A DNA stretch of 64,000 nt from Methylocystis sp. H62. GTDB lineage: Bacteria > Pseudomonadota > Alphaproteobacteria > Rhizobiales > Beijerinckiaceae. The notes under the pieces were generated by a model. It saw only the letters and a program-made list of their open reading frames with translations, ran no database searches and was not told the DNA's origin. Made by a program: the position numbers and the translations under genes. Shown here one piece after another: positions 1,011-63,074 of this stretch; position 1 is the stretch's first letter, and every line of letters starts with the position of its first letter. The DNA is taken from NCBI RefSeq assembly GCF_015709515.1, contig NZ_JADNQZ010000058.1:1-64000 (forward strand), written 5' to 3'.

Positions 1011-1035
1011 GGAACCCTCGCTGAGCCCAGGGGTT
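1011..1035 (+). promoter_or_regulatory. EcfG-type general-stress promoter (candidate)
   Basis: GGAAC at 1011-1015 and GGTT at 1032-1035 are separated by 16 bases, matching the alphaproteobacterial sigma-EcfG pattern GGAAC-N16-CGTT at all but the first base of the -10. The ATG of the next gene is 53 bases downstream on the same strand. Confidence 0.55.
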
Positions 1036-1087
1036 GGTTTCGGTCAGGCGCGCCGCAGTCCCCGTGGAGCGAACAGGAGCAGGCAAG

Positions 1088-1483
1088 ATGTCGTCAGGAC
1101 AAAGCAGTGGAACCGGGGCGAGAACGGAACTGAACGATGAAAAGGTGAGGAAGAACGACATTCTCAGTAATCGCGATAAGGCCCAAAGACGACCTGGACA
1201 GAGCTTGGACAGTAAAGGCGTTCAGGTCGACGAATACAAGGACAACCCGGCCAATCGCCGCCCATCGAGCGACGATAGACTTCAACCTGATCTCAAGTCA
1301 GCCGCTGAGAAGCCGAAGGAGTCGTCACTCGGGACCGACAGCCCAGAGCCGGCGGATGATTCCAAGCAAGTCGATCGGCCCGGTTTCGACTTGGGGGGAT
1401 CGACCGGCGAGACCCAGGGAGGCAAAGGTCTGGGGCTTGGCGCCGATGCGCTGAAAACCCGAAAGGGGCGCTTGCCAAGATAG
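1088..1483 (+). CDS. Small hydrophilic, probably disordered protein
   Basis: A 131-residue protein rich in Ser, Gly, Asp, Lys and Pro with no hydrophobic core, no cysteines and no recognisable domain. I start it at the ATG at 1088 (MSSGQSSGTG), which has GGAGCAGG just upstream. The longer reading from 1034 adds an Arg/Val stretch before the ribosome binding site. An EcfG-type promoter match lies 53 bases upstream, so it is probably a general-stress protein, perhaps hydrophilin-like. The function is not known to me and the stress role is inference from composition plus promoter. Confidence 0.6.
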   Translation: MSSGQSSGTGARTELNDEKVRKNDILSNRDKAQRRPGQSLDSKGVQVDEYKDNPANRRPSSDDRLQPDLKSAAEKPKESSLGTDSPEPADDSKQVDRPGFDLGGSTGETQGGKGLGLGADALKTRKGRLPR

Positions 1484-1955
1484 CGTCGCTTGAGGCCGCG
1501 AGCCGATGCTCGCGAACGCCCAAGAGAGCGCGCCGGACATCGCGGCTCGGCGCAGACAGCAAATCATTTCGAGCAATTCGGACAGAGCTGATTTCTAGTA
1601 GGTTGGCTCGGCGGTCACTGAACTCAGCGCAACATTTGCGTTGACCTGAAGGGCGCAAACTTCAAGCTAGCTCGAGACCCCAAAAGGCATTGGGGGCCGT
1701 CGCGGCCCTCTGCGTGCGCTCCCCGAGCGCCGATGAGTGTTGTTCGCGCGATGGCGCCTGGAACGAGGCTTGGCGCCCGTCCGAGGGCGCCGCCACTCGC
1801 TCTCTCTCGCAACATTATCAGTATTGCTTTGACGCGGGAACTTCCGCCGCTTGCAATTGCTGCGCAAAAATTTGCGAATCACCAATGAAATCGTTAGCAA
1901 TCGAATGTGTGTGGGTGAGCAATAATGCAGGCGCTTAACTCGTAAAGGACATCTT
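1484..1955. other. Intergenic region upstream of the HU-like gene
   Basis: About 470 bases without a convincing gene. Open frames here read as low-complexity shadow translations. A GGAAC at 1837-1841 lacks a matching -10 at 16 or 17 bases. The promoter of the HU-like gene must lie near the right end, but I see no strong consensus. Confidence 0.5.
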
Positions 1956-2342
1956 ATGGCTAGAGGAAAACCGGTGAAGGCGGCGACCAGGAAGGTGAGC
2001 AAGGCTGAGCCTGCCGCCATTCGGCCGATCAAAGAGACATTTACAAAATCGGCGCTCATCAACCGGATCGCCGAGGAGAACGACATTCCTCGCAAGACCG
2101 CGGTGGGCGTCTACGCGACGCTGGAGAATGTGTTTCTCGGGTCGGTCCACCCGCGCGGCGTCGGCGAGTTCACTTTGCCGGGCCTTCTGAAAGCGACCCT
2201 CCGCAAGGTGCCGGCGCGCAAGGCGGGGACTCTGGTTCGCAATCCTGCGACGGGCGAAATGGTTAAAGCCGCCGCCAAGCCCGCAAGCGTGCGCGTCAAA
2301 ATCCGGCCGCTCTCCAAATTGAAATCGGCGGCGACGAAGTAA
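1956..2342 (+). CDS. HU/IHF-family DNA-binding protein
   Basis: A 128-residue basic protein. Residues about 24-110 follow the HU fold: FTKSALINRIAEENDIPRK (helices 1 and 2), then a GVGEFTLPGLLKATLRK beta segment, then the DNA-binding arm RKAGTLVRNPATGEMVK, where canonical HU has GRNPQTGE. It differs from housekeeping HU (about 90 residues) by a Lys/Ala-rich N-terminal extension of about 20 residues and a basic C-terminal tail. The family compacts and bends DNA in the nucleoid. The basic extensions suggest a specialised, perhaps stress-phase, nucleoid protein (inference). The gene stands alone, followed by a convergent gene. Confidence 0.9.
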   Translation: MARGKPVKAATRKVSKAEPAAIRPIKETFTKSALINRIAEENDIPRKTAVGVYATLENVFLGSVHPRGVGEFTLPGLLKATLRKVPARKAGTLVRNPATGEMVKAAAKPASVRVKIRPLSKLKSAATK

Positions 2343-2577
2343 GCGCCATACATCGGGCCGTCGCGTTGCTTTTGAGCGCCGCGTCGGCGCGCTTGTCGCC
2401 GCCAATTTGTTGCTAGGGGGCCGCGCCAGGCCAATTGGCGCTCAACCGCTCGCGACGGCTGCGGTAGTCAGGAGCGCGCGCGTCACGGCGCCGCCCCTTA
2501 AGGCCGTCCTTTGGATCGAGCCTGACGTCGACGGCAGTCTATTGGAACCGCCGCCGCCGAAATGGCGAACCCCGCTC

Positions 2578-2916
2578 TTACCATCCGAAGCCGTCGGGAT
2601 AACCGTAAGCCGGGTAGCCATAGGCCGGATAGCCATAATCATACGGCTGTGCGTAGGCGCCGGCTGCGCCGGCTGCTGCTGCGGCGCCGAGCACGCCAAC
2701 GGCCGCGGCGGCCGCGGCTGCTGCGCCGGGATTATATCCACGGCGATAATAGCCGCCTCGGTAACGCCGGTAGTAGATCTGATCAGTCAACGATGGGGCA
2801 TCAATGCCCGCAGACCGCGCCACATTAGGTCCCGCCCAAGCGTCACCTGTTAAAGCCGTCGCGGCCAAACCGCCAAAGAGGGCGGCGGTGATGATAGATT
2901 TCGATGTCTTACGCAT
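2578..2916 (-). CDS. Secreted Ala/Gly/Tyr-rich protein
   Basis: A 112-residue protein with a clear signal peptide (MRKTSKSIITAALFGGLAA, cleavage near AWA-GP at about residues 27-29). The mature part contains IYYRRYRGGYYRRGYNPG, then an alanine tract with a short hydrophobic stretch, and near the C-terminus three repeats of the type YGYPAYGYP. Such Tyr/Gly/Arg-rich small exported proteins are common in Hyphomicrobiales and have no assigned function. The alanine tract could be a glycine-zipper-like membrane segment (inference). It is transcribed alone, convergent with the HU-like gene. Confidence 0.75.
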   Translation of the reverse strand: MRKTSKSIITAALFGGLAATALTGDAWAGPNVARSAGIDAPSLTDQIYYRRYRGGYYRRGYNPGAAAAAAAAVGVLGAAAAAGAAGAYAQPYDYGYPAYGYPAYGYPDGFGW

Positions 2917-3104
2917 GTGTGCCTCGCTCGCCTTTGAAACATCTTAATTACGACGCCCTCACGAGAAGCTGGATCGTCGCCTTATATCTGGGCGCTCACG
3001 ACGCCGTTGTCGAGGCCGGGCCTCGAAGGCCGAGTTTCATCAATGAGGTGGGGCAAGGCGTAAGTCGAAAGCTCCCAGAGTCCGTCCTCCTCCAGGCTCG
3101 GCGT

Positions 3105-3689: not shown

Positions 3690-3706
3690 TCCATCAACAC
3701 CCGCTC

Positions 3707-5230
3707 TCAAGGCTCGTGTTCTTGCAGGGGCGCGTAAGCAGGGCCGTTGAGCGCTTCGCCGTCCGGCGCGAATTGAGATCCGTGACAGGGGCAGTCCCAA
3801 CATCGCTCGAAGGCGTTCCAGTGAACGAGACAGCCAAGGTGGGAACAAACGGCTGAACGCAGGAACAGCGTCCCGTCGTCGTCCCGAAAGGCGGCGACTT
3901 TGCTCAAGCCGCTGCGCACGATCGCACCTTCGCCCGGCTTAAGCTGATCCCATGAGCCGATTTCGCCGGGCGTGACATATTCGGCGAAGTTTTTTGGCGT
4001 GGTGAGATTTTCGCTCAGATATTCGCCCACGGCGTCGAGCGGCGAGCGCGCGGGATCATAGGCCTCCGCCCAGCGGCTGGCGCCGGTCAGGATCAGGTCC
4101 TTGATGATCAGGCCGGCGAGCGCGCCATGCGTGATCCCTTGCCCCGAATCGCCGGTCGCAACGAAAACGCGCGCGCTCCCAGGGTCGCGGCCAATGAAAG
4201 CCATGCCGTCGATGGGTTCGAGAACCTGTCCAGACCAGCGGCGAAGCTCTTTGCCGAGCGACGGCAAACGCGCGCGCATCCAATCCTCCAGAGCCGCGAA
4301 GCGATCAGGCGCATCATTTGCTTCGCCCGATCGATGATCCTCGCCGCCGACGATCAATATGTCGACGCCATCCTCGCCAGGCTGCAGCCGCACGTAGTGA
4401 TACGGATCGAGCGTATCCCAATACAACGCGTCCGGAAGCGCGCCGGACCGCAATTCGAACGCCATCGCGTAGGTGCGGTAAGGCGCTTGCTTCGTGTGAA
4501 TGGCGATGCGGTCGGTAATCGGCGCATTCGTGGCGACCACCGCGAAATTTGCGTGGACCGTACGACCGTCGGCCGTCATGACTCTTACGCCGTCATCGTC
4601 CTCCGCCACCTCAACCACCGTGGCGTCGGCATAGAAACGTCCCCCGGCGTCGACGATCGCGCGCGCAAGGCCGTGAAGATATTTGAGCGGATGCACGCGG
4701 GCCTGATCGGGATAGCGAAGCGCCGGCGTGGCGTCATGGCCGGCAAGGGGAACGCCTGTCTGCTTGAAGACCGGAAGTCCCGCCTTCTGCGCCGCTTCGA
4801 ACTCGCGTTCAAGCCATTCCACGTCTTCTGTTCTTGCCGCAAAGAGATAGCCGTCGACCCTTTGAAAGTCGCAGTTGATTTTGAGTTTTTTTTGCAGAGT
4901 TTCAATGCGATCAATCGCGGCCTGCTGGCTTTCGCGCCAGGCGCTTGCGATGTCTTCCCCGCGTATTCTGATGAGTTCGTCGAATCCGTCGTCGCTTGCC
5001 GATGCAAGATGCGCGGTCGTGCGCGCCGTCATTCCTTTGCCGATCGGTCCGCGATCGAGAATGATGACCTTCTTGCCGCTGCTCGCAAGTTCATACGCCG
5101 CTGACATCCCAGCGATGCCGGAACCTACAACGACGACATCAGCGCGTTCGTCGTTCAGAAGAGAGCTGACGCCTTCGACAACGGGCGCGTCCGTCCAAAT
5201 GGATCGACTTTTTTCAAAAGAGACATTCAT
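3707..5230 (-). CDS. FAD-dependent oxidoreductase with C-terminal Rieske [2Fe-2S] domain
   Basis: A 507-residue protein. An N-terminal Rossmann FAD site (VVVVGSGIAGMSAAYELA, residues about 32-49) starts a DAO/DadA-like oxidase domain of about 390 residues. The last about 90 residues are a Rieske domain with both ligand pairs (CSHLGC and CPCHGSQF). This architecture is a known family in which electrons pass between an FAD substrate site and the iron-sulphur cluster; the substrate is unknown. I choose the ATG at 5230 rather than the upstream in-frame ATG at 5374, because an EcfG-type promoter (5292-5316) would start transcription between them. It leads an operon with the membrane protein 17 bases downstream. 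Confidence 0.88.
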   Translation of the reverse strand: MNVSFEKSRSIWTDAPVVEGVSSLLNDERADVVVVGSGIAGMSAAYELASSGKKVIILDRGPIGKGMTARTTAHLASASDDGFDELIRIRGEDIASAWRESQQAAIDRIETLQKKLKINCDFQRVDGYLFAARTEDVEWLEREFEAAQKAGLPVFKQTGVPLAGHDATPALRYPDQARVHPLKYLHGLARAIVDAGGRFYADATVVEVAEDDDGVRVMTADGRTVHANFAVVATNAPITDRIAIHTKQAPYRTYAMAFELRSGALPDALYWDTLDPYHYVRLQPGEDGVDILIVGGEDHRSGEANDAPDRFAALEDWMRARLPSLGKELRRWSGQVLEPIDGMAFIGRDPGSARVFVATGDSGQGITHGALAGLIIKDLILTGASRWAEAYDPARSPLDAVGEYLSENLTTPKNFAEYVTPGEIGSWDQLKPGEGAIVRSGLSKVAAFRDDDGTLFLRSAVCSHLGCLVHWNAFERCWDCPCHGSQFAPDGEALNGPAYAPLQEHEP

Positions 5231-5291: not shown

Positions 5292-5316
5292 AACGAATGC
5301 GCCAGCTCCGTGTTCC
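5292..5316 (-). promoter_or_regulatory. EcfG-type promoter of the FAD-Rieske operon (candidate)
   Basis: On the minus strand GGAAC (5316-5312) is followed after exactly 16 bases by CGTT (5295-5292), a full match to the sigma-EcfG consensus. The predicted transcript start near 5285 lies 55 bases before the ATG at 5230 and excludes the longer frame start at 5374. Confidence 0.65.
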
Positions 5317-5612: not shown

Positions 5613-5637
5613 GGAACGAAGTCCCTTTCCGCAAGTT
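5613..5637 (+). promoter_or_regulatory. EcfG-type promoter of the Mn-catalase gene (candidate)
   Basis: GGAAC at 5613-5617 and AGTT at 5634-5637 with a 16-base spacer. This matches the consensus except for the first -10 base. It lies 74 bases before the catalase ATG at 5711. Mn-catalases are commonly general-stress genes in this class. Confidence 0.55.
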
Positions 5638-5710: not shown

Positions 5711-6610
5711 ATGTTCACGCATAATAAGAAACTCCAATATACGGTTCGGGTATCCGAGCCCAACCCGATCCTCGCGAGCCTGATGCTCGAACAGTTCGGC
5801 GGGCCGCAGGGAGAGCTTGCGGCTGCGATGCGATACTTCACGCAGGCGATCGCCGAAGACGATCCGGGCCGGCGCGACATGCTTTTCGACATCGCCACCG
5901 AAGAGCTCAGCCATCTTGAGATCATCGGCAGCATCGTGTCCATGCTGAACAAGGGCGCCAAGGGGCAGCTCGCGGAAGCGACGCAGTCCGAGGCCGAGTT
6001 GTATCGCTCCGTCACGCAGGGGGCCGACAGCCACACGCAGGCGATCTTGTACGGCGGCGGCGCGGCTCTCACCAATTCTTCGGGGGTTCCCTGGACCGCG
6101 GCTTACGTCGACACGATCGGCGAGCCGACGGCGGACCTGCGGTCCAATATCGCCGCCGAAGCGCGCGCCAAGATCGTCTACGAGCGGCTCATCAACGTCA
6201 CCGATGACGCTGGCATCAAGGAGGCGCTCGGCTTCCTCATGACGCGTGAGATCGCCCACCAGATCTCATTCGAGAAGGCGCTGTACGCGATTCAACCCAA
6301 CTTCCCGCCCGGCAAGATGCCAAGCATACCGCAGTTCTCGCATCTCTATGTGAATGCGTCGCAGGGGCCGACGGATCATAAGGGTCCTTGGAACACGGGC
6401 GAGAATTGGCAGCGCATGGACGATGTGCTCGGCGGCATCCCGCTCGACGGCGGAGACGGCGCGGCGAGCGTCCATCTCGGATCGTCGCAAAGTGAGGATC
6501 TCGCCAATTTCGCAGCGCGAACGAAATCCAACCCCGGTTCAGATCCGGTGACGGGCGCGGATCTTGGCAGCAGCGGCGGCGCCGAAGCGCGACATTCGCC
6601 CGCGGAATGA
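5711..6610 (+). CDS. Manganese catalase (ferritin-like)
   Basis: A 299-residue cytosolic protein that should break down hydrogen peroxide at a dimanganese centre. The opening FTHNKKLQYTVRV, the helix with QGELAAAMRYFTQA, and the metal-binding helices DIATEELSHLEIIGSIV and AEARAKIVYERLINVTDD are typical, with the later REIAHQISFEKAL supplying the final Glu-x-x-His pair. The C-terminal tail after about residue 240 is polar and variable, as in many family members. The ATG at 5711 has AGGAG 6 bases upstream, so it is preferred to the in-frame start at 5693. An EcfG-type promoter precedes it. A strong hairpin follows before the next gene. Confidence 0.93.
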   Translation: MFTHNKKLQYTVRVSEPNPILASLMLEQFGGPQGELAAAMRYFTQAIAEDDPGRRDMLFDIATEELSHLEIIGSIVSMLNKGAKGQLAEATQSEAELYRSVTQGADSHTQAILYGGGAALTNSSGVPWTAAYVDTIGEPTADLRSNIAAEARAKIVYERLINVTDDAGIKEALGFLMTREIAHQISFEKALYAIQPNFPPGKMPSIPQFSHLYVNASQGPTDHKGPWNTGENWQRMDDVLGGIPLDGGDGAASVHLGSSQSEDLANFAARTKSNPGSDPVTGADLGSSGGAEARHSPAE

Positions 6611-16087: not shown

Positions 16088-16112
16088 GGAACCGACGCCG
16101 ATCTCTAGGGTT
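16088..16112 (+). promoter_or_regulatory. EcfG-type promoter of the GH1 operon (candidate)
   Basis: GGAAC at 16088-16092 and GGTT at 16109-16112 with a 16-base spacer. The expected transcript start near 16120 precedes the small leader ORF (ATG 16209) and the first GH1 gene (ATG 16331). Confidence 0.55.
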
Positions 16113-16208: not shown

Positions 16209-16331
16209 ATGAACGACGCTCCTGCGCCATCGGACCCGCGCCAGCGCTGTCATTTGTTCCACCACGGCGACCCTCGGGCCGGCAAGCCATACGCCGCCGC
16301 CGCGTCCCGCGTTCTCACGATCTGCGCCTGA
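16209..16331 (+). CDS. Small leader ORF coupled to the GH1 gene (40 residues)
   Basis: A 40-codon frame from the ATG at 16209, with GGAGG 9 bases upstream, opens MNDAPAPSDPRQRCHLFHHG and continues DPRAGKPYAAAA to a TGA at 16329-16331. The stop overlaps the ATG of the GH1 gene as TGATG, a classic translational-coupling arrangement. The peptide has two Cys and several His but no signal peptide or known domain. It may be a small protein or a leader whose translation controls GH1 synthesis. A sequencing frameshift joining it to the GH1 gene is an alternative. Confidence 0.45.
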   Translation: MNDAPAPSDPRQRCHLFHHGDPRAGKPYAAAASRVLTICA

Positions 16332-17623
16332 TGCTTCCGAGCGCGACGGAACTCGATCGGCTCACTGCGCCCGGCGCCTTTCTATGGGCCACCGGCGTTG
16401 AAGACACGTTCATCACGGCTCCGCATCCCAGAACCGGGCGCATGCTCGACGAATATGAGCTGACGGATCATTATCGGCGATGGGAAGAGGATATCGCGTT
16501 GATGGCGCAATTGGGGGTTCCCTGCGCACGCTATGGCGTGCCCTGGCATCGGGTGCAACCGGCGCCGGAGACTTGGGATTTCAGCTTCGTCGACGCCGCG
16601 CTCGAGCGCATGCTCGAACTTAACATCGATCCTATCGTTGACCTCGTGCATTACGGTTTGCCGCACTGGATGGAGCGCGCCTTCCTCAACGCGGATTATC
16701 CAAGGCGCGTGGCGGAGTACGCCGCCCGCCTTGCTGAACGCTTCCGTGGGAGGATCAGGTGGTACACGCCGCTGAACGAGCCTCGGATCACCGCCTGGTA
16801 TTGCGGACGTTTGGGCTGGTGGCCGCCGTACGGGCGCAGCTGGTCGAGTTTCGTTGCGGTGATGCTGTCGATCTGTCGCGGAATCGTGGAAACGACCCGT
16901 GCGCTACATGATGTCGACCCCGAAATCGTCGCGTTTCACGTCGACGCCACCGATGTTTTCGAGTCGAGCGACCCGGCGTTGGCCGAGGAGGCAGAGCGGC
17001 GTCAAGGAATTGTGTTTCTTGCGCTCGATCTCATCAGCGGGCGCGTCGATCCGCGTCATCCGCTGTGGAGCTGGCTTCTCAGCCAGGGCGCGGCGGAACC
17101 TGCGCTGAGCGCCTTTCGTGAACGCCCGCTTGAGCTCTCTGTCATTGGCGTGAACCTTTACCCGATTTTCACGCTCAAGCGGATGTCGCGGGACCGTTTC
17201 GGGCGACTGCGCGTTCGAATGCCTTACGCTTCGGGCGCGCTGGTGACGAAGATCGGCGAGATGTATTTCGAACGTTACGGCGCGCCGATCATGATCTCGG
17301 AAACCGCGACCAAGGGTTCGGTGAGACAGCGACAGGCGTGGCTCACTGACTCGGTCGAGGCGGTGAAGACGCTGCGCGCGAAGGGCGTTCCGATGGTGGG
17401 CTATACGTGGTGGCCGATGTTCGCGCTCGTGACGTGGGCCTATCGCCAAGGGCTGCGGCCCCTCCACGATCATCTTTTGCAAATGGGGCTATGGGATCTC
17501 GATCCTGCTCCATCGGGGCGGCTGGACCGTGTTGAGACGCCCCTTGTCGACGCCTATCGTCGACTGACGTCCGGTGGCGCGGCCGCGGTGGGTCCGCTCG
17601 CGCCAACGCCACGGCTGCCGTAG
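16331..17623 (+). CDS. Glycoside hydrolase family 1-like protein (beta-glucosidase type)
   Basis: A 430-residue TIM-barrel glycosidase without a signal peptide, so probably cytosolic. The acid/base Glu is in TPLNEPRITAWY (about residue 150) and the nucleophile Glu in MISETATKG (about residue 324). The usual GH1 spacing and the early WATGVEDT and late GYTWWPMF motifs are present. It should cleave a beta-glycosidic bond with retention; the sugar is unknown. I start at the ATG at 16331, which overlaps the stop of a small ORF with a good ribosome binding site. A GTG at 16148 would add an Arg-rich tail that looks non-coding. A second GH1-like gene follows 33 bases downstream. Confidence 0.85.
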   Translation: MLPSATELDRLTAPGAFLWATGVEDTFITAPHPRTGRMLDEYELTDHYRRWEEDIALMAQLGVPCARYGVPWHRVQPAPETWDFSFVDAALERMLELNIDPIVDLVHYGLPHWMERAFLNADYPRRVAEYAARLAERFRGRIRWYTPLNEPRITAWYCGRLGWWPPYGRSWSSFVAVMLSICRGIVETTRALHDVDPEIVAFHVDATDVFESSDPALAEEAERRQGIVFLALDLISGRVDPRHPLWSWLLSQGAAEPALSAFRERPLELSVIGVNLYPIFTLKRMSRDRFGRLRVRMPYASGALVTKIGEMYFERYGAPIMISETATKGSVRQRQAWLTDSVEAVKTLRAKGVPMVGYTWWPMFALVTWAYRQGLRPLHDHLLQMGLWDLDPAPSGRLDRVETPLVDAYRRLTSGGAAAVGPLAPTPRLP

Positions 17624-18896: not shown

Positions 18897-20720
18897 TCAC
18901 TCCGCCGCTTCAGCACGTCTCCGCGCTTTTGAAAAGGCGCCGCCTGAAGAGATGAGCGCGTCGTGCCCGCCGCGCTCGACGATTTGTCCTTCGCGCATGA
19001 CGAAGATGCAATCACAATCGACAACCGACTCCAGACGATGAGTCACGAGAATAATCGTGCGTGATCCTTTTAGTCGGTGCAGCGTTTCGATCAGCCGCCG
19101 CTCCTGCTCGGGATCGAGCGCGCTCGTTGGTTCGTCGAGGATGAGGAACGGCGCGTCGGACAGCAGCGCGCGCGCAATGGCGATTCGCTGCCGCTGACCG
19201 CCGGAGAGATTCGCGCCGCCCTCGGCTAACATGGTCTCATAGCCATTGGGCAGAGAGTGAATGAATTCGGCGGCGCCCGCGTCTTCGGCCGCTCGTTCGA
19301 TTTCCGCTCGCGTGGCGTTGTGCCGCCCATAGGAGAGATTTTCTGCGATGGTCGCCGGCAGCACGAGGCTGTCTTGCGCGACGAGCGCGAAATGCGCTCT
19401 TAGCGCCTCGAGCCGTACGTTCCTGAAGTCCACGCCATCCAAGCATAGCGCCCCGCTCGTCGGATCGTAGAACCGAAGCATGAGACTTAAGAGCGTGCTC
19501 TTGCCGGCCCCGCTCGCTCCGACGAAGGCCACCATCTGGCGCGGCCGTATCGTTGCCGAAACGTCGGTGAGAATTTGCTTGCCGCTCCCGTAGTCAAAAC
19601 TCACGCGCTCAAGCGTCAGAGTTCGCGGCTTACTGGAAATCCAACGCGCCGCCGGCGAATCGACAACGGCTTCCGGTTCGTCGAGCACATGAAAAACCCG
19701 ACGCGAAGCGGCCTCGAAGATGCGCACTTTGGCGAAGAACTCGCTGAGCCATTTCAGCGGGTCCCAAAGCTTGCGCAAGTAGTCGATGAAAATGAGCAGG
19801 GTCCCGACCGTCATTCCATCGGCGACGGGCACGAGAAACTGGTCGCGGTAAACGAGCCAGCCTCCATAGCCGAGGATAATCGCGCCACCCACGGATAGAA
19901 CGCCGTCGCGCGCGAGAGGATAGAGCTGTTCCTGCCAGTTCAAGCTCAGCAGCGCCTCGACGCTTCTGCCGACCGCGCCGGAGAAGCGTCTGAATTCGAA
20001 AGCCTCGCGACGGAACGCCTGCGCCAAAGGTATACGCGCCATCGCCTGCTGAATATGCGCGGTCAGATCGGCGTCGATCTGCTTCGAGTCAAGCGCGCGT
20101 TTGTGGATCCTGACGCCAAATCGCCAGTTGCTCCAAATCATGAAGGGGGCGACGGTAAAGGCCGCCAGCGTTAAACTGACGTTTCGAGAAAAAAGAATAA
20201 TGGTCATCACGGTGAGCGTTACGGCCGCAACCGAAGTTCCAATCACGACGTCGACGATGCCCCACGGGCCGAAGGCGTCTGTCGTCAGACGATAGATCGA
20301 ATCGCCCTGCGGTCGGCTGCGGTGATACGTGAGGCCAAGATTTTGAAGCTTGGTGAAGAGATCGAACCGCACCCGCGTCGTGCCGCGATAATTGAGATAA
20401 TAATTGATCATCATGCGGCCCATCCAGGCCGTATATCCGACGAGTTGCAGGCCAAGTCCGATCGCGACCAGACCCGCGATCTGCCCGGGTTTGTCCTTGG
20501 GCAATACGGCGAGGAAGTAGCTGTGTATCCAGTTGCCTTTCGGCTCGCTGGAAAGCACGGAGTCGACAAGCACCGCCAGCGGCCACGCCTCCAGGAGGCC
20601 GACGCTCACGGAGATCGCGATCATCGCGACAAGCGCTGCGATCCGCACCCGGTCTTGTAGGAAGTATGTCAGCGCCCGGCGATAAACCGCGACGTCTGTC
20701 ATGTCTTGCGCAGAATGCAT
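18897..20720 (-). CDS. ABC exporter, fused permease and ATPase (MsbA-like half-transporter)
   Basis: A 607-residue half-transporter. Six membrane helices (about residues 25-300) include the segment with VGLLEAWPLAVLVDSVL. The nucleotide-binding domain (about 350-590) has Walker A (FVGASGAGKSTLLSL), signature LSGGQRQRIAIARAL, Walker B with LILDEPTSALDP, and a switch His in VTHRLE. All motifs are intact, so it should work as a homodimer exporting a lipid-linked or glycan substrate. I start at the ATG at 20720; the longer frame runs into the GH2 gene. It follows the GH2 gene by 23 bases, indicating an operon and export of a carbohydrate-related product (inference). Confidence 0.9.
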   Translation of the reverse strand: MHSAQDMTDVAVYRRALTYFLQDRVRIAALVAMIAISVSVGLLEAWPLAVLVDSVLSSEPKGNWIHSYFLAVLPKDKPGQIAGLVAIGLGLQLVGYTAWMGRMMINYYLNYRGTTRVRFDLFTKLQNLGLTYHRSRPQGDSIYRLTTDAFGPWGIVDVVIGTSVAAVTLTVMTIILFSRNVSLTLAAFTVAPFMIWSNWRFGVRIHKRALDSKQIDADLTAHIQQAMARIPLAQAFRREAFEFRRFSGAVGRSVEALLSLNWQEQLYPLARDGVLSVGGAIILGYGGWLVYRDQFLVPVADGMTVGTLLIFIDYLRKLWDPLKWLSEFFAKVRIFEAASRRVFHVLDEPEAVVDSPAARWISSKPRTLTLERVSFDYGSGKQILTDVSATIRPRQMVAFVGASGAGKSTLLSLMLRFYDPTSGALCLDGVDFRNVRLEALRAHFALVAQDSLVLPATIAENLSYGRHNATRAEIERAAEDAGAAEFIHSLPNGYETMLAEGGANLSGGQRQRIAIARALLSDAPFLILDEPTSALDPEQERRLIETLHRLKGSRTIILVTHRLESVVDCDCIFVMREGQIVERGGHDALISSGGAFSKARRRAEAAE

Positions 20721-20743
20721 GGCGCTATAACGCGCCAGCTCGC

Positions 20744-23482
20744 CTAAAGGTCTTCCCAGCCCACGGGTTCGAGCTTCGAGATCGCAGGCGCCGGACCGGC
20801 GCTTCGCGCGGCAGCCTCGATCAGGCCGCCAAGCAAAGCCGCGGCGGTTGGATCTTCTCCCGGAGGATCTCGGAAAAGTTTGAACGTTGAGATCACGACG
20901 CGGCCGGTGCCGTAGTTGCGTCCGACCGCAATCGCGGCCGGACGATGGATCCACCCGACAACCAGCGCGGCGTGAACGCGCGCCTGAAAGTCAAGGAGAT
21001 TGCAGCCGGAGATGATATGCGTCGGGATCACACGATCAAACGCTTGGTCAAGCAGAGGCCCGCCGGGAATCGCGGCGAACGGACCCTGCCGCCGAAGCCA
21101 GGCGAAAGAGGACGCCCAGTCGCCTCGCCACAGCGTGCCGTCGCGCGCCATCACCTTGACGTTCTGCCAGTGGGGAAAAAATGGCGTGAGCGAGCCCGGC
21201 GTTTCGGTCAAGAGAACCGCTCGGCCGCCGGCGCGCACATAGGCCGCAAGCGCGGTCGAAGCGTGCGTCTCGATGACGACGTCCGCCGTCTCGGCCCCTT
21301 CCGCCAGTCCATAGCCAAGCGCCTGCACCCGGTCTCGAATGTCGCCGTGCGACGACCACAGCGAAAGCACCGGCGGTCGAGGCTTCGCATGCACGGCGAC
21401 GTCGATTTCGTTGCTCGCGAGAAGCCGTCCGTCAAGAGAACGCAAGCGCAGGGTGAGACGGCGCAGGCAAGAGTGCTCGACCACCGGCAGTTTCACCGAC
21501 ATCATGCCGAGATCAACCACAGCGCCTGGCTCGATGGAGGGGATTTCCAACGTCATCGGCTCGGTGAGCGATATGTCGAGAGCCGCCGCCTCCAACGGAT
21601 TTGGCCCGCCATGCGCCACGCAGAGCGAGAGGCGAACGGCGTCGCCCGACCAGTAGGCGGGGCGATCGAGTGTGGGCAGAATAACCGTGTCGGCATTGAT
21701 CGAGTGGAAGAGATTGTGAAAAGCCCGTGGATTCGACCGCATGTCGAGAAGGCCGTTGGCCTCCCAGTGACAATCGGTCAGCTCGGTGATGACGTAGCCG
21801 GCGATCTGCGGCTTCCGGCGCATGGCTTCGATCTGGTATTTCAGCGCACGAAACTGTTGCCACTGCGTCGCTTCGATGAAGCTTTCGAACGTCCCGAACA
21901 CGCGGTCGAGACTCCAGTCTTGAAATCGGTTGCGAACGCCATGCGCATACATGACGCCTTCGCTCCAGTCGTGGCCGGTCTCGAACCACCAGGCCTCGGC
22001 GCCGGCCGCGTCTCTCAACTTCTCAGGGTCAGGCAGCCCCCAATTGCCAAATTCCGAACATAGCAGCGGCTCCTGTCCCGTGATGACCGCGTCGCCCTCG
22101 GGGCTGAAGAGCCATTCGGCCCGTCCGGCGAGTTCCTCGACGAACTGATCCCAGTCCTCCCGACTATCGGGAATGGCGGCATAGAAATGGAAATCCGCGA
22201 GATCGGTCTGGACGTGAAAGCTCGGCGCCAAGGGCGAATTGTCGACGACAAGCCGCGACGGATCGTAGGACTTGAGCCACAGGTACAACTTCTTCAGCCA
22301 TGCGCGGTGAGAGGAGTCATGGACAAGGTCGACGCCCCAGTTCTCGTTGATCAGTGTCCAGCAAAAGATCGAAGGATGGTTTCCGTCGCGATCGATAAGG
22401 CCCTTCAGCGTGAGCTCCTTGCGCTCTCGCGAGAGTTCGGTCGAATCCCCGGCGTTCGGCAGTTCCGCCCAAATCAGCAGGCCAAGGCGATCGGCGACCT
22501 CATAGTAACGCGGATCCGGCACTTTAATGTGACAGCGCAGTGCGTTCAGCCCGAGTTGCTTCGCCTTGTAAAATCTGTCCTCGAGAAATTCGACCGAGGG
22601 CAGAGTGCAGATTGTGTCGGGATAATAGTCCTGATCGAGAGCGGCGCGCAGATAGAACGGCTTGCCGTTGAGATATAATTTCCCGTCTCGGGTTTCGACG
22701 CTGCGAAAGCCGAAAGTCGTTTCGATTTGGTCGACGACGACGTCTTTGCGCGTCATCGAGACTTGCAGACGATAGAGATAGGGGCTGTCGGGCGACCAGC
22801 AGCGCGGCGCAGGCACAAACGAATACAGCAGCGCGTTTTCAACCCCGGTCGCCAGTTTGGCGCAGGAATGCGCCACGGCATTTTCCTCCGCGTCGACGAC
22901 CGTAATGGTCACGTCGGCGGCGTCGGTGAGCGGGCTCTCGAAGCGCACTTGCGCCGAAATCTCGCCGCTCGCCTGCGATGAACGCACGCGCACCGTGGTT
23001 ACGTGGTCCGCGATCCGCCTTTCGAGATACACGGACTGCCATATCCCCGAGAGAGGGCCATACCAGCTTTGCTTGCCGAAGGGCATTTCGGCGAATGGCG
23101 TCGTGGGGAATTCGAACGGGTCGTCGGTGGGGCTTTCCACCTTCACCTTAATCTCGGCCTTTCCGTTGACGATCCGGTCAGTGATGTCGAAATGAAACGG
23201 CAGGAAGCCGCCGACATGGCTGCCGACGAATGCGCCGTTCACAAACACATGGGCTACGTGAAAAACGGCGCCGAAGTGCAGGTACACCCTTTGCTCCAGC
23301 CATTCTTCAGGTATCTCGACGTCTCGTCGATAGACCGCGACGCCGCCACGCATTCGCAGATCGGCGAACTGGGCTTGCCAAGGGTTCGGGACAAGAATCG
23401 TCCTGCTCTCGGCCGGCTTCGCGCCATAGCCGAGATATTTGAAGTCCCAAGAGCCGTCTAGGGATATGCGCGCTGCGCTCAC
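20744..23482 (-). CDS. Glycoside hydrolase family 2 protein (beta-galactosidase/glucuronidase type)
   Basis: A 912-residue enzyme without a signal peptide. The N-terminal sugar-binding domain opens LDGSWDFKYLGYG and contains the family pattern YRRDVEIPEEW. A beta-sandwich follows, and the TIM barrel carries the acid/base Glu in TLINENWG (E380) and the nucleophile Glu in LLCSEFGNWG (E477). After about residue 650 there are further beta domains and a C-terminal Rossmann-like segment. It should remove a terminal beta-sugar from an oligosaccharide. The start is a GTG at 23482 with GAGG 6 bases upstream. The ABC exporter gene follows directly. A cytosolic GH2 beside an exporter and Glf is unusual. 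Confidence 0.88.
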   Translation of the reverse strand: MSAARISLDGSWDFKYLGYGAKPAESRTILVPNPWQAQFADLRMRGGVAVYRRDVEIPEEWLEQRVYLHFGAVFHVAHVFVNGAFVGSHVGGFLPFHFDITDRIVNGKAEIKVKVESPTDDPFEFPTTPFAEMPFGKQSWYGPLSGIWQSVYLERRIADHVTTVRVRSSQASGEISAQVRFESPLTDAADVTITVVDAEENAVAHSCAKLATGVENALLYSFVPAPRCWSPDSPYLYRLQVSMTRKDVVVDQIETTFGFRSVETRDGKLYLNGKPFYLRAALDQDYYPDTICTLPSVEFLEDRFYKAKQLGLNALRCHIKVPDPRYYEVADRLGLLIWAELPNAGDSTELSRERKELTLKGLIDRDGNHPSIFCWTLINENWGVDLVHDSSHRAWLKKLYLWLKSYDPSRLVVDNSPLAPSFHVQTDLADFHFYAAIPDSREDWDQFVEELAGRAEWLFSPEGDAVITGQEPLLCSEFGNWGLPDPEKLRDAAGAEAWWFETGHDWSEGVMYAHGVRNRFQDWSLDRVFGTFESFIEATQWQQFRALKYQIEAMRRKPQIAGYVITELTDCHWEANGLLDMRSNPRAFHNLFHSINADTVILPTLDRPAYWSGDAVRLSLCVAHGGPNPLEAAALDISLTEPMTLEIPSIEPGAVVDLGMMSVKLPVVEHSCLRRLTLRLRSLDGRLLASNEIDVAVHAKPRPPVLSLWSSHGDIRDRVQALGYGLAEGAETADVVIETHASTALAAYVRAGGRAVLLTETPGSLTPFFPHWQNVKVMARDGTLWRGDWASSFAWLRRQGPFAAIPGGPLLDQAFDRVIPTHIISGCNLLDFQARVHAALVVGWIHRPAAIAVGRNYGTGRVVISTFKLFRDPPGEDPTAAALLGGLIEAAARSAGPAPAISKLEPVGWEDL

Positions 23483-23664
23483 CTAACCTCACTTCGACCA
23501 GGAGTGCCGGCGCCGGAGCATCGTTGCCTGGTCGAATATAACAATGAGCGATCCACGTTCGATTTTCTACATAGCGACCGTCAAAACACTCAGTATTTTT
23601 ATCCACGACTCAAGCTTAGCCGGATGGCGCAGCGCAGAGTTGGCTCATCGCAATCGCGACTCGA
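23483..23664. other. Intergenic gap between glf and the GH2-ABC pair
   Basis: About 180 bases without a gene. No EcfG match or strong promoter consensus was found on the minus strand, so the GH2-ABC pair may be read through from the glf transcript. Confidence 0.4.
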
Positions 23665-24807
23665 CTACTCAGCGGCCACTGAGGCGGTAGCGAAGGCCGC
23701 GCTGTTCCGAGCCGGGATCTCCTTATTGATCCGTCGGAACGTCGCGAGCGCCTGACCGACCACCTGATCCATATTGTAGTAGCGATAGGTTGCCAGCCGC
23801 CCGACAAACCAAACATTTTGCTGCGCGATCGCAAGCTTCTCATAGCGCTTGTAGACTTCCGCATTTTCCGGGCGCGGCACTGGATAATAGGGATCGCCTT
23901 CATCGCTCGGGAATTCATAGGTCAGGCTTGTTTTGGGATGTTCCTGACCCGTGAGATGCTTATATTCGGTCACCCGCGTATAGGCTTCAGTTTGCGGATA
24001 ATTGACGACCGCCACTGGCTGATGCTGCCGCTCATCGAGCGTGACATGTTCGAAGCGCAGCGATCGATAGGGCAGCTTTCCGAAGCGGAAATCGAAATAT
24101 TCGTCGATCGGCCCGGTGAAGATCAGTCGTTTATAGAAGACTTCGTTGCGCACCTCCTCGAAGTCGGTCTGCAGCATGACGTTGATGTTGGGGTGGTCCA
24201 CCATCCGTTCGAACATGCGCGTATAGCCGTGAAGCGGCATGAATTGGTATTCATCGCCAAAATAGCGGTCGTCGTGATTGAGGCGAGTCGGCACCCGCGC
24301 CGTTACGGACTTGTCCAGCTGCGACGGCTCTACGCCCCACTGCTTTTTGGTGTAGCCGCGAAAGAATTTCTCGTAGAGTTCTCGCCCCACGGTGCTGACG
24401 ACGACGTCCTCAGACGTCTTGATCTCTTCACAATGTTCGGCGCGGCTGGCGAACCACTGCGCAAGTTGCTCCGAATCTAAGGAGAGACCGTAGAGGCGAT
24501 TCACGGTGTCCAAGTTGATCGGAATGGGCACGAGCATGCCGTCCACATTCGCGAGGACGCGGTGCTCGTACGGGCGCCATTGCGTAAACTGTGAAAGATG
24601 CGCGAAGACGGCTTCAGAGTTTGTATGAAAAATATGCGGGCCGTATTGATGCATAAGCACGCCGGCGTCGTCGTAGCGATCATAGGCGTTTCCGCCAATG
24701 TGCGGCCGACGATCGATAAGAAGGACGCGCTCGTCGCGCTGCGACGCGAACCGTTCGGCCAGCACGCTTCCCGCGAAGCCTGCCCCGACGATAAGCCAGT
24801 CAAACAA
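23665..24807 (-). CDS. glf: UDP-galactopyranose mutase
   Basis: A 380-residue flavoenzyme that converts UDP-galactopyranose to UDP-galactofuranose, the donor for Galf-containing glycans. The N-terminal FAD motif is WLIVGAGFAGSVLAERFA, followed by the diagnostic RRPHIGGNAYD and QYGPHIFHT. The FAD-contacting Arg in RFGKLPYRSL and the C-terminal RYYNMDQVVGQAL are also typical. The length is normal. The start overlaps the end of the glycosyltransferase gene by 8 bases, so the two are translationally coupled. Confidence 0.95.
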   Translation of the reverse strand: MFDWLIVGAGFAGSVLAERFASQRDERVLLIDRRPHIGGNAYDRYDDAGVLMHQYGPHIFHTNSEAVFAHLSQFTQWRPYEHRVLANVDGMLVPIPINLDTVNRLYGLSLDSEQLAQWFASRAEHCEEIKTSEDVVVSTVGRELYEKFFRGYTKKQWGVEPSQLDKSVTARVPTRLNHDDRYFGDEYQFMPLHGYTRMFERMVDHPNINVMLQTDFEEVRNEVFYKRLIFTGPIDEYFDFRFGKLPYRSLRFEHVTLDERQHQPVAVVNYPQTEAYTRVTEYKHLTGQEHPKTSLTYEFPSDEGDPYYPVPRPENAEVYKRYEKLAIAQQNVWFVGRLATYRYYNMDQVVGQALATFRRINKEIPARNSAAFATASVAAE

Positions 24808-25939
24808 GTTGTCCCTCCCGCGTTGATTTGGACTCGGCGCCGACGTTCGCGATATGCAGCATCATTCTCGCCCAGGTCTTGTCCCACGACATTTCCGCAA
24901 GATGCGCATCGACCGAACTGAGCCAGTGCGCCTTCGGCCGCGAAAGCAACAGATCGATCTTGGCGACGAATTCTTCCGCGCTCGACGCGATTTCCACATG
25001 CCCGGCCGCGCCATATGGGTTAACGACATCGGTGATCGGCGTTGAAACCACCGGCACGCCTGCAGCAAGAAACTCGGGCGTTTTCGTCGGGCTGATAAAG
25101 CGCGTCGCTTCATTCAACGCGAATGGCATGATTCCGACATCCCATCCGGAGAGGTAATTCGGAAGCTCCTGGTAACTCTTGCAGCCCAGCCAATGGATGT
25201 TTTCGGCGCGCGGGAGAGATTCGGGGTTGATCTTCGCGGTGGGGCCGATCATCACCAATTGCCATTGCGGTCGCAGCGCCGAGATGCCGGCGACGATATC
25301 CATATTCATGCGTTCGTCGATGACGCCAAAGAACCCGATGCGGGGATGCGAAATCTCTCGTTGATCATCGGGATCACCGCTGCGGTCTCGCGCGCTCTTG
25401 AAGTGAGCGGTGTCGACGCTGCTCGGAAAAACGTGAATGTTGTCGTGTCGTTTACGTTTGGATTCGTACAGGCTCTGTCCGCCGACGAACATGAGTTCGC
25501 ATTTGGCCATCAACTCTCGTTCGAGATCGAGAATGCCTTGGGGCGCTCCAGCAAACGCGGAAAGCTCATCCATATTGTCATAGACGCGCAGGTTGGGAGA
25601 GAGATGGCGCGTAAACTGAAGCGCCATGGGCGTGTAATACCAGCTAACCCATCGCGAAGGCCGCACCTTTGCGAGCAACTCGTTTACGACGCGATGTTGC
25701 GCGTTAGAGATTTCGTCTGGTGAGAGGCCTTCTGGAAGAATAGGCGTCACGACAACGACGCCGCAGGCTTCGTCCCGCTGGATTTTAACGCCTGCGTCAT
25801 CTTGGGAAAAGATGGGCTCTTCGATGTAGAAGACGCCGAGATTTCTAGCTGCTCGACTCAAAAGATGCTGGGGTCGCTGATAAACGAAGTTCCAACGAAG
25901 ATGTGAGAAACAAAAGAGATGACTTGGAACTGACATCAT
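24800..25939 (-). CDS. Glycosyltransferase (GT4-like)
   Basis: A 379-residue cytosolic GT-B enzyme. The N-terminal domain opens MSVPSHLFCFSHLRWNFVYQ with a conserved QRPQH. The C-terminal domain has the strand IGFFGVIDERM, LVMIGPTAK and the donor-binding pattern PTKTPEFLAAGVPVVSTP. It probably adds a sugar, perhaps Galf because glf is coupled downstream (8-base overlap), to a surface glycan. I start at the first of two adjacent ATG codons (25939), with GAGG 6 bases upstream. An EcfG-type promoter lies 51 bases before it, so the glycan genes look stress-induced. Confidence 0.85.
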   Translation of the reverse strand: MMSVPSHLFCFSHLRWNFVYQRPQHLLSRAARNLGVFYIEEPIFSQDDAGVKIQRDEACGVVVVTPILPEGLSPDEISNAQHRVVNELLAKVRPSRWVSWYYTPMALQFTRHLSPNLRVYDNMDELSAFAGAPQGILDLERELMAKCELMFVGGQSLYESKRKRHDNIHVFPSSVDTAHFKSARDRSGDPDDQREISHPRIGFFGVIDERMNMDIVAGISALRPQWQLVMIGPTAKINPESLPRAENIHWLGCKSYQELPNYLSGWDVGIMPFALNEATRFISPTKTPEFLAAGVPVVSTPITDVVNPYGAAGHVEIASSAEEFVAKIDLLLSRPKAHWLSSVDAHLAEMSWDKTWARMMLHIANVGAESKSTREGQLV

Positions 25940-25989: not shown

Positions 25990-26014
25990 AACTCGGGTTC
26001 AGCAACTTTGTTCC
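25990..26014 (-). promoter_or_regulatory. EcfG-type promoter of the glycosyltransferase-glf operon (candidate)
   Basis: On the minus strand GGAAC (26014-26010), 16 bases, then AGTT (25993-25990). It is divergent from a second EcfG-type match at 26102-26126. Confidence 0.5.
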
Positions 26015-26101: not shown

Positions 26102-26126
26102 GGAACAGCGTCTCTAACGGCGCGTT
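26102..26126 (+). promoter_or_regulatory. EcfG-type promoter of the PRC-barrel gene (candidate)
   Basis: GGAAC at 26102-26106 and CGTT at 26123-26126 with a 16-base spacer, a full consensus match 42 bases before the ATG at 26168. Confidence 0.65.
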
Positions 26127-27198: not shown

Positions 27199-27223
27199 AA
27201 CCCGCTCGCGAGGTCGTTGTTCC
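27199..27223 (-). promoter_or_regulatory. EcfG-type promoter of the small anchored protein gene (candidate)
   Basis: On the minus strand GGAAC (27223-27219), 16 bases, then GGTT (27202-27199). It lies 39 bases before the ATG at 27160. Confidence 0.55.
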
Positions 27224-61638: not shown

Positions 61639-61650
61639 CGAGGCGGCGCT

Positions 61651-62358
61651 CTAGGCGCCGTGCGGACGATCGGACCGCGCGCGCAAGCGATCGTCCTCCA
61701 AAGCAAGCAGCCACTGGGAAGCGATCCAAACGCCGGAGAGGACATAGCTTGCAGGGCAGGCCGCCAGCATCAGCAAACCGGCAAGGCGCTGATCCGCCAA
61801 CATTGTCTCTGTGGTCGCTCCCCAACTCGCAGCGCTTGTGTCGAGAACCCGCGGCGCGAACACGAGAAGCACGCCGAGAAGGCAGGCAAGCTTGCCGGTG
61901 ATCGCCAGAGCGGCGACGCCGCGCCAGCGCGCGACGCCCGTATCGCCGAGAATCGCCAGCCAGAACAGCAGAGCGGCCGCCAGCAGAGACGCGTGCATCA
62001 GGAGATGCGCGGTTGGATGTCGCTCGACATAGGCCGACGCCCCCGGCGCATGCCACGCATAGAGCAGGGCAAGCTGCGCTGCGGTGACGACCGCCAAGGC
62101 GCGACCGGTCGCGAGGACCGGCGCCGATGTGAAACCCATCCCCAGCACAGCCAGAAAAGGCGCGAGCGCGCTCATCAGCAAAATATGCGTCGCCATGTGC
62201 GACGCCCGAGGCCCGAGGCCCGGACCCGCGTAAGCGACAAGCGCAACCGCGCAGACGACAACCCCCGCGACGACGATCTTCGACCGCGGCTCCCATGCGG
62301 ATTGGGCGGGGAGCGCGCCGTCCGCCGTCGATGCAATCGCCAATTTCGCTCTGCTCAT
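61651..62358 (-). CDS. ctaG: CtaG-type (caa3) oxidase assembly protein
   Basis: A 235-residue membrane protein with about seven helices. I start at the ATG at 62358 (MSRAKLAIASTADGALPAQS); the long upstream frame is antisense to the divergent gene. SHMATHILLMSALAPFLAVLG, LLYAWHAPG, HPTAHLLMHASLL and a closing ASQWLLALEDDRLRAR fit the CtaG_Cox family, which helps copper-centre assembly in caa3-type oxidases. It lies 12 bases upstream of the fused subunit I/III gene in the same operon. Confidence 0.85.
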   Translation of the reverse strand: MSRAKLAIASTADGALPAQSAWEPRSKIVVAGVVVCAVALVAYAGPGLGPRASHMATHILLMSALAPFLAVLGMGFTSAPVLATGRALAVVTAAQLALLYAWHAPGASAYVERHPTAHLLMHASLLAAALLFWLAILGDTGVARWRGVAALAITGKLACLLGVLLVFAPRVLDTSAASWGATTETMLADQRLAGLLMLAACPASYVLSGVWIASQWLLALEDDRLRARSDRPHGA

Positions 62359-62492
62359 CGCTTCATTGGTGCGAGTTGCGAATAGGGGACCATATTGGCC
62401 AGCGCGCCGGTCAATCCAGAGCTTGCTGCGGCTATTGAAACGTCTGCCTCGTCGCCTACTGTGTGTAACTTGGGGCAGCCAGCGGCGTAGAC

Positions 62493-62969
62493 GTGGACAA
62501 ATTTCAGATACTTCCCCATCTCGCGGCGCTTGCCGCCGCCTATGCGCTCGCATTGCCGATCGGCTGGGATCGGGAGCGACAGGAGCGCAGCGCAGGGCTC
62601 CGCACATTTCCGCTCGTCGCTCTCGCCTCCTGCGGATTTGTCCAGGCGGCTGAGCAGTACATGGCGAATTCGCCTGACGCCATGGCGAGAATCATCCAAG
62701 GCATCATCACCGGAATTGGTTTCATCGGCGGCGGCGCCATTCTCAAGCAGGGCTCCATGGTCAAGGGAACGGCGACAGCGGCGAGCCTGTGGGCCACAGG
62801 CGCTGTGGGCTCCGCGGTCGGTCTCGGCAGCTACGACGTTGCGGTTGTGATCGCGGCTTTCACTTTTGTGACGCTCAGAGTGGTCACGCCGCTCGAGAAC
62901 AGCGTGCTGCTCGACGATGATTCGCGCGCGAACAAAGATTCCCGCGTGAACAAAGATCCGAGCTCATAG
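62493..62969 (+). CDS. MgtC/SapB-family membrane protein
   Basis: A 158-residue protein with a GTG start at 62493. About four helices with the MgtC pattern: LALPIGWDRERQERSAGLRT, FPLVALASCGF, GIGFIGGGAILKQG and VKGTATAASLWATGAVGSAV. The hydrophilic C-terminal 20 residues (SRANKDSRVNKDPSS) replace the soluble ACT-like domain of long MgtC forms. MgtC-like proteins are linked to low-magnesium and envelope stress. It is divergent from the oxidase genes, and MscS follows 133 bases downstream. Confidence 0.85.
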   Translation: MDKFQILPHLAALAAAYALALPIGWDRERQERSAGLRTFPLVALASCGFVQAAEQYMANSPDAMARIIQGIITGIGFIGGGAILKQGSMVKGTATAASLWATGAVGSAVGLGSYDVAVVIAAFTFVTLRVVTPLENSVLLDDDSRANKDSRVNKDPSS

Positions 62970-63049
62970 AATTTACAGCCGCGTCGCGGTTTCGCTCACG
63001 CAGAAGCGCAGGCGCGATGGCGGCTGGGGAACCGCGTCGGCGGCGCCGA

Positions 63050-63074
63050 GGAACATCGAGGACGTCTCGGGGTT
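63050..63074 (+). promoter_or_regulatory. EcfG-type promoter before the MscS gene (candidate)
   Basis: GGAAC at 63050-63054 and GGTT at 63071-63074 with a 16-base spacer, 28 bases before the ATG at 63103. Confidence 0.55.

Follow-up and report, generated by a model that had tools for sequence, protein, structure and literature searches.

The window analyzed here, a 64-kb stretch of a Methylocystis genome, carries eight matches to GGAAC-N17-GTT (Table 1), and we regard these as very probably promoters read by EcfG, the general-stress sigma factor of the Alphaproteobacteria. An earlier note on this DNA had placed the eight sites in a single EcfG regulon. That reading is supported by enrichment of the motif in a sample of genome tiles, by two phyR-nepR-ecfG loci in the genome, and by the recurrence of each site before orthologous genes, with the sites at 1011 and 5292 in place in two close relatives only. 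The general stress response is well known in this bacterial group, so that the signal, although genuine, belongs to a type already familiar.

Table 1. Candidate EcfG promoters and associated genes in the window (distance, bases from site to start codon).
Feature	Coordinates	Strand	Distance	Basis
EcfG-type promoter of 131-aa small protein	1011..1035	+	52	exact motif
Hydrophilic small protein, 131 aa	1088..1483	+		no Pfam match
FAD-dependent oxidoreductase, C-terminal Rieske domain	3707..5230	-		Pfam DAO 1.9e-55, Rieske 8.5e-10
EcfG-type promoter of FAD-Rieske gene	5292..5316	-	61	exact motif
EcfG-type promoter of Mn-catalase	5613..5637	+	73	exact motif
Manganese catalase	5711..6610	+		Pfam Mn_catalase 3.5e-86
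EcfG-type promoter of GH1-like gene	16088..16112	+	35/96	exact motif
GH1-like glycosidase	16331..17623	+		Pfam Glyco_hydro_1 1.3e-21
Weaker GH1-like paralog, next after GH1-like gene	17657-18874			31% identical
Probable operon	18897..25939	-		Pfam; same strand, gaps <200 b; co-transcription predicted
ABC transporter, in probable operon	18897-20702	-		Pfam
GH2, in probable operon	20744-23482	-		Pfam
UDP-galactopyranose mutase-like, in probable operon	23665-24807	-		Pfam
Glycosyltransferase, in probable operon	24800-25939	-		Pfam
EcfG-type promoter of glycosyltransferase and genes behind it	25990..26014	-	50-53	exact motif
EcfG-type promoter of PRC-barrel gene	26102..26126	+	41	exact motif
PRC-barrel protein, N-terminal part hydrophobic	26168..26761	+		Pfam PRC 2.3e-5
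109-aa small protein, hydrophobic C-terminal stretch	26831..27160	-		no Pfam or NCBIfam match
EcfG-type promoter of 109-aa small protein	27199..27223	-	38	exact motif
EcfG-type promoter of MscS	63050..63074	+	28	exact motif
MscS-type mechanosensitive channel, continues beyond window end	63103..64000	+		Pfam MS_channel_2nd 5.2e-21

A pattern search of the window returned the same eight coordinates that had been listed before, and no others. Dinucleotide shuffles of the window gave 1.08 expected sites (sd 1.06), with eight or more in none of 100 shuffles, and the density in the remainder of the genome corresponds to 1.56 sites in 64 kb. For this one window that density gives a Poisson P of 2.2e-4, a post hoc value uncorrected for the genome's approximately 70 windows. 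The earlier note had put the chance number at about two. Spacings other than N17 produced 0–3 matches each in the window. The −10 words are GGTT at four sites, CGTT at two and AGTT at two. All eight sites stand as GGAAC-N16/17-[C]GTT in the correct orientation before their targets; a called start lies within 200 bases for five of them, and the start was picked by hand for the remaining three. The measured distances agree with the 28–74 bases, or about 97 for the GH1 leader ORF, proposed previously.

Variant patterns added little. Within 200 bases before called window genes, nothing new was found with GGAAC-N16-GTT, GGAA[AGT]-N17-CGTT, G[ACT]AAC-N17-CGTT or GGA[CGT]C-N17-CGTT, and GGAAC-N17-G[AT]T returned solely the known sites. 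A GGAAC-N18-GTT match at 30308, before a carboxyl-transferase gene, falls within the end of the preceding gene and is probably due to chance. Little was gained from an NCBIfam scan of ten window genes.

Enrichment of the motif before start codons, the check proposed with the original observation, was positive in a sample of 32 tiles (640 kb, 579 called genes): five GGAAC-N17-GTT matches lie within 200 bases before starts, compared with a mean of 0.7 for 15 other spacings. These tiles were not selected for motif matches, yet their choice came after a first genome-wide match list (12 tiles) or after a first and a second list (20 tiles), the second complete in counts and partial in positions, and one of them (C56:100001-120000) was included to cover a weak PF22029 match. 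In all 60 stretches the corresponding values are 23 and 1.5, with 28 of the 60 picked when NepR or motif positions were known; the density claims leave out these set B (20) and NepR (eight) stretches, chosen with match positions known. Elsewhere in the genome the motif precedes genes for Ku, two CsbD proteins, a catalase, a photolyase, and DUF892, DUF2383 and DUF308 proteins, as well as phyR, and it is found within the phyR/nepR gap. In locus L044, a listed site stands before only one of two Ku genes.

Before the GH1-like gene, the site is present in 20/20 genus orthologs including our own (19 with N17, one with N18) and the spacer has diverged in those that are 75–77% identical. The conserved protein start (MLPSA..., 16331) lies 218 bases from the site; conservation does not extend to the longer GTG frame, because in-frame stops fall between the site and 16331 in several of the 20 orthologs. 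The exact site also precedes Mn-catalase in 13/50 alphaproteobacterial loci and in 0/30 beta/gammaproteobacterial loci, one of which has a GGAAT-N18 variant. In 35/50 of the alphaproteobacterial loci no site of spacing 16–18 occurs within 300 bases. EcfG is described, in the part of PMC3892343 available, as exclusive to Alphaproteobacteria, and within the scope of the Mn-catalase loci the exact site is absent where EcfG is absent. Locus L339, which is without upstream sequence, was excluded from the comparisons.

Around 26–27 kb, the sites are kept before the glycosyltransferase gene in 10/10 loci (nine N17, one N18), before the PRC-barrel gene in 10/10 (eight N17, two N18), and before the gene for the 109-aa protein in all nine loci whose contig reaches it, own locus included in each case; the tenth (L185) stops short. 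Conservation at these ten loci is weak evidence by itself, because they come from close relatives and because, on the glycosyltransferase strand, an N21 spacer is also kept in nine of ten. The MscS site is present in 7/7 close orthologs including our own; it is missing at a full-length 79% ortholog (L265), and none is found near the partial ortholog L266.

At the left of the window, the site at 1011 is present, with altered spacer letters, in both loci that reach that far (L065 and L066). These loci encode 90–92% identical copies of the 131-aa protein, which is absent from the seven other named loci compared, and they also keep the site at 5292. The longest possible FAD-Rieske ORF extends to 5374 and thus spans the latter site, which is probably upstream of the true start because the relatives' alignment begins at the ATG at 5230. 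In loci that carry the FAD-Rieske gene on the opposite side of Mn-catalase, it has an upstream site at 52 bases in L068 (N18) and at 179 bases in L069 (N17), whereas in L067 the nearest is 850 bases off. A DDE_3 transposase fragment lies at the window's left end.

The control circuit is located outside the window. NepR, PhyR and EcfG models match nothing within it, as the earlier note had stated, and a profile search of the window likewise returned no HWE-kinase matches. The genome contains two adjacent phyR-nepR-ecfG sets, on contigs C50 and C57; both PhyR proteins exceed the NCBIfam PhyR cut-off and both neighboring sigma factors exceed the PF22029 cut-off. There are 14 HWE_HK matches over cut-off in the genome, one of them within the C50 core locus. 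Alongside two EcfG and two PhyR proteins, the genome encodes nine NepR-like anti-sigma factors, all outside the window, seven of which are orphans additional to the two core nepR genes. Nine is the highest number in the genomes sampled, among the matches listed (59 genes analyzed of 60 taken, from 21 other genomes and away from phyR/ecfG matches, plus the nine of this genome). Eight of the nine exceed the curated cut-off for the PF18557 helix, with C29:18326 scoring 24.4 against 25.7. When five of the seven orphans were scanned with the NCBIfam NepR equivalog (cut-off 100 bits; core NepR outside the scan), two matched weakly, at 25.8 and 19.9 bits, and three had no match. Three orphans lie behind EcfG-type promoters, and two of the nine NepR-like genes are on sequence that shares 99.97% identity with a plasmid classed as mobilizable, of the pGW6_2 type. 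It is possible, if doubtful, that in Methylocystis an enlarged and partly mobile set of anti-sigma proteins governs the regulon to which the eight promoters belong, that the seven orphans compete for the two PhyR/EcfG pairs, that the three behind EcfG-type promoters therefore form negative feedback loops, and that the plasmid, through its two genes, could damp the general stress response of any host that it enters.

Could the window simply be a lucky one, in which a short pattern happens to be matched eight times? Across the genome the raw pattern shows no excess, with 117 matches compared with 168 for a reversed-pattern control (45 and 62 when restricted to CGTT), and 16 of the 21 matches in the 32 tiles precede no called gene. 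Because only five do, many genome-wide matches are probably chance, and the raw genome-wide count is uninformative and not by itself a defining feature of the regulon. Single sites with few relatives, such as those at 1011 and 5292, could still be chance. As an account of the eight sites, however, chance is extremely unlikely: their number is well above the shuffle expectation and specific to one spacing, the sites are kept before orthologs even where spacers have diverged in the GH1 and Mn-catalase families, and the footprints of these two families contradict it. Other ECF groups also use GGAAC at −35, and the sites might be promoters of such a sigma factor rather than of EcfG; CGTT, the −10 most typical of EcfG, occurs at only two of the eight. 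We consider this very unlikely, given that the motif lies between phyR and nepR and also precedes genes for Ku, CsbD and catalase, and that GGTT and AGTT are among the −10 elements in the EcfG table for Sphingomonas melonis, as far as that table is available (PMC6599016).

It could also be asked whether the dense block is a recently gained stress island instead of a regular chromosomal segment of this regulon, since its site density exceeds that of the rest of the genome and a transposase fragment lies at its left end. This is improbable. The order and spacing of the GH1, PRC-barrel and MscS genes (about 9.8 kb and 37–40 kb) are unchanged in four relatives (G251, G226, G203 and G190), and identity to the loci of four relatives is roughly 90–97% for GH1 and MscS, as with ordinary chromosomal genes. 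Synteny contradicts a mobile island for the 16–63 kb part; the first 6 kb were compared only in the Mn-catalase loci.

Under the EcfG reading, the sigma factor would recognize −35 GGAAC and −10 [CGA]GTT elements separated by 16 bases, after stress had acted through HWE kinases to bring about PhyR phosphorylation. Mn-catalase would guard against peroxide and MscS against osmotic shock, and the PRC-barrel protein, the small proteins, the sugar-polymer gene set and the FAD-Rieske oxidoreductase may also be among the protective products. The window would then be one densely packed, syntenic portion of a wider regulon with its controllers elsewhere in the genome. The sites, their spacing, sampled enrichment and conservation, and the switch genes are observed; for this organism we infer from them the use of the sites by EcfG, the stress induction and the product roles. 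For a methanotroph genus that matters in methane removal, this defines a stress regulon specific enough to be tested. With NepR genes outnumbering their partners, the genome is well suited to studying what need a sigma-factor switch would have of many brakes, and whether a host's stress response can be tuned by plasmids.

The −35 and −10 elements, their spacing and the phyR-nepR-ecfG switch are the same as in the EcfG (ECF15) regulons of S. melonis Fr1 (PMC6599016) and Methylobacterium extorquens AM1 (PMC4814048), as described in the available parts of those papers. PRC-barrel proteins, Ku and glycosyltransferases are target classes common to these regulons and to this genome. In Table 1 of the S. 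melonis study, GGAAC sites precede a PRC-barrel gene, Ku and glycosyltransferases, and the −10 elements include GGTT, CGTT and AGTT, with those of Ku and one glycosyltransferase deviating. This genome differs from the known systems in its methanotroph host, a Methylocystis, its two full core loci, its seven extra NepR-like genes and its dense syntenic target block. Precedents for additional anti-sigma factors exist in the portions available of the same two sources: NepR2 of S. melonis and META2_0735 of M. extorquens are proposed to act in negative feedback via PhyR, and RsiA2 of Sinorhizobium meliloti is a second anti-sigma factor. Here too NepR-like genes exist beyond the core copy, and some have their own EcfG promoter. 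However, the genome holds seven orphans, whereas the M. extorquens work tested three homologues other than NepR (PMC4814048, in the part available), and, unlike the named NepR paralogs, two of the Methylocystis orphans reside on mobilizable-plasmid-type sequence.

The eight GGAAC-N17-GTT sites that the earlier note listed in the window and read as EcfG-type promoters (N17 being 16 bases plus the first base of the -10 word) are all exact matches at the positions claimed, where dinucleotide shuffles give 1.08. Each is oriented toward an ORF start 28–96 bases downstream (8/8), and the -10 words are GGTT (four), CGTT (two) and AGTT (two). GGAAC and GTT at other spacings give 0–3 matches in the window. 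From the remainder of the genome, 1.56 raw matches per 64 kb would be expected (P = 2.2e-4, post hoc and for this window alone), and the first ~27 kb holds seven sites versus 0.66 expected on that basis, again post hoc. A GGAAC-N18-GTT lies ~50 b before a carboxyl-transferase gene, yet within the end of the preceding gene, and is probably a chance match.

Locations of features discussed (plain numbers, positions in the window, which is the first 64 kb of contig C58; C plus number, contigs of the Methylocystis sp. H62 genome, G000)
Feature	Location	Strand
Site, 131-aa protein	1011	+
Site, FAD-Rieske	5292	-
Site, Mn-catalase	5613	+
Site, GH1	16088	+
Site, glycosyltransferase	25990	-
Site, PRC-barrel	26102	+
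Site, 109-aa protein	27199	-
Site, MscS	63050	+
GGAAC-N18-GTT	30308	+
DDE_3 transposase fragment, very end of contig	28-513	+
225-aa paralog	8580-9257	-
225-aa paralog	9403-10080	-
Glycosyltransferase, UDP-galactopyranose mutase-like, GH2, ABC transporter genes	18897-25939	-
GGAAC-N17-GTTCC, phyR-nepR gap	G000:C50:152133-152159	both
phyR, nepR, ecfG	C50:151-153 kb	
phyR, nepR, ecfG	C57:180-182 kb	
Second site cluster (L044): two Ku genes (a site precedes one of them), long ligase-like gene between, CsbD, orphan nepR	G000:C55:87349-93715	
NepR-like	C29:8935	
NepR-like	C29:18326	
NepR-like	C24:12658	
NepR-like	C42:52541	
NepR-like	C49:134540	
NepR-like	C50:151802	
NepR-like	C55:92834	
NepR-like	C57:181036	
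NepR-like	C58:223550	

The genome-wide scan proposed in the earlier note gave a divided answer. Across 4.54 Mb in 59 contigs the raw count of GGAAC-N17-GTT is without excess (117 versus 168 for the reversed pattern), as is that of the CGTT form (45 versus 62). Spacing and place relative to genes are more informative. Spacings 10 to 25 were compared over 32 tiles totalling 640 kb and 579 called genes: spacing 17 gave 21 matches, five of them ≤200 b before a gene, versus means of 9.1 in total and 0.7 before genes for the 15 other spacings, an enrichment before genes in this sample. Adding 28 further stretches, picked with their matches known, gives 23 before genes versus 1.5. Nine of the genes found behind the motif elsewhere were scanned with Pfam, yielding Ku, two CsbD, a long catalase, photolyase, DUF892, DUF2383, DUF308 and one without a match. 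The motif also precedes phyR and a nepR. Besides the window, a second dense cluster of sites occurs on C55.

The sites recur before orthologs. Of 50 alphaproteobacterial Mn-catalase loci, 13 have the site with N17 (0.18 expected), two more have it with N18 and 35 have no site; of 30 beta/gamma loci, none has it with N17 (0.11 expected), and a GGAAT-N18 variant occurs in a single beta locus. The Mn-catalase protein itself is 97–98% identical to Methylocystis and Methylocystaceae records. The GH1 site is found in all 20 orthologs, own included (19 N17, one N18), and its spacer letters have diverged in orthologs 75–77% identical. Both the PRC-barrel and the glycosyltransferase sites are kept in 10/10 loci including our own, with N17 or N18; these counts are weaker than those for GH1 and Mn-catalase, because the ten loci resemble one another so closely that nine of them also retain a spacing of 21 on the glycosyltransferase strand. 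The site of the 109-aa gene is present in the 9/9 loci reaching that gene, own included, and those of the FAD-Rieske and 131-aa genes in the 2/2 loci extending that far, which are from close relatives. In three loci the FAD-Rieske gene is found on the opposite flank of Mn-catalase; a site precedes it by 52 b in locus L068 (N18) and by 179 b in L069, and L067 has its nearest site 850 b off. The MscS site occurs in 7/7 close orthologs, own included, and is absent from a full-length 79% ortholog; the sole remaining match is partial. The window block looks like an old neighbourhood rather than a new island, because the order and spacing of GH1, PRC-barrel and MscS are conserved in four relatives' genomes (G251, G226, G203 and G190).

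The genes downstream of the glycosyltransferase site may form a stress-controlled surface-polymer operon. The adjacent 225-aa paralogs have no Pfam or NCBIfam match, and in locus L052 a further copy occurs on the same contig, ~165 kb away.

As the earlier note had observed, the window lacks ecfG, phyR and nepR; the switch is encoded elsewhere, with the three genes adjacent at two loci. Both PhyR proteins (360 and 293 bits) exceed the NCBIfam cut-off of 240 bits. PF22029, the Pfam model matching PhyR/EcfG, finds two PhyR, two EcfG and one match below cut-off, and gives 3–6 matches in 35 of 39 genus genomes (0–7 overall). One of 14 HWE-kinase matches adjoins ecfG in the C50 locus, where the GGAAC-N17-GTTCC site between phyR and nepR can be read as an EcfG promoter in either direction. 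In the established alphaproteobacterial model, as set out in PMC6599016 and PMC12148442, stress kinases lead to phosphorylation of PhyR, which draws NepR from EcfG, and the freed EcfG transcribes its regulon. We infer that EcfG uses the eight sites, and the window would then supply targets of the switch that serve peroxide defence and osmotic release, together with surface or small proteins and a set of sugar-polymer genes. Among the matches listed, no description of an EcfG regulon or NepR expansion in Methylocystis was recognised in open-access literature.

NepR-like genes are in surplus: nine, eight over the Pfam cut-off, versus two PhyR and two EcfG. This is the top count among 248 family genomes sampled (next, eight) and 39 genus genomes (range 0–9, the zero from an incomplete genome), and far above the highest other count, three, in a class sample of 240. 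Seven of the nine are orphans, with no ecfG or phyR adjoining; an EcfG-type site lies ≤500 b upstream of three of these and of none of the other four, with shuffles of the seven upstream regions yielding such a site at a rate of 0.8–1.6% each. Among 68 genes compared (nine from this genome plus 59 of the matches listed in 21 others of the genus), groups common to several species include the C58:223550, C42:52541 and C55:92834 types. Within 500 b upstream, a site was found in 10/10 clustered C55-type members (eight N17, two N18) and in 0/12 C58-type, 0/12 C42-type and 0/5 C29:8935-type members, the C58 and C29:8935 types forming one cluster in sequence clustering and having been separated by eye.

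Two orphans reside on C29, a contig that over 20 kb (L039, G000:C29:1-20000) shows 99.97% identity to the Methylocystis rosea plasmid pGW6_2 (L348), typed mobilizable. In the plasmid's annotation, one is a NepR family anti-sigma factor that has Hsp20, J-domain and universal stress genes nearby, and the other is hypothetical. Formate dehydrogenase, a copper ATPase and a gene annotated as amoC also lie on the plasmid stretch. Four other genomes share the 1.9 kb surrounding the NepR-annotated orphan at 99.9–100% identity; at their chromosomal nepR, GH1 and MscS loci they differ from our own by ~2–10%. For NepR paralogs known elsewhere, negative feedback through PhyR binding has been proposed (PMC4814048 and PMC6599016).
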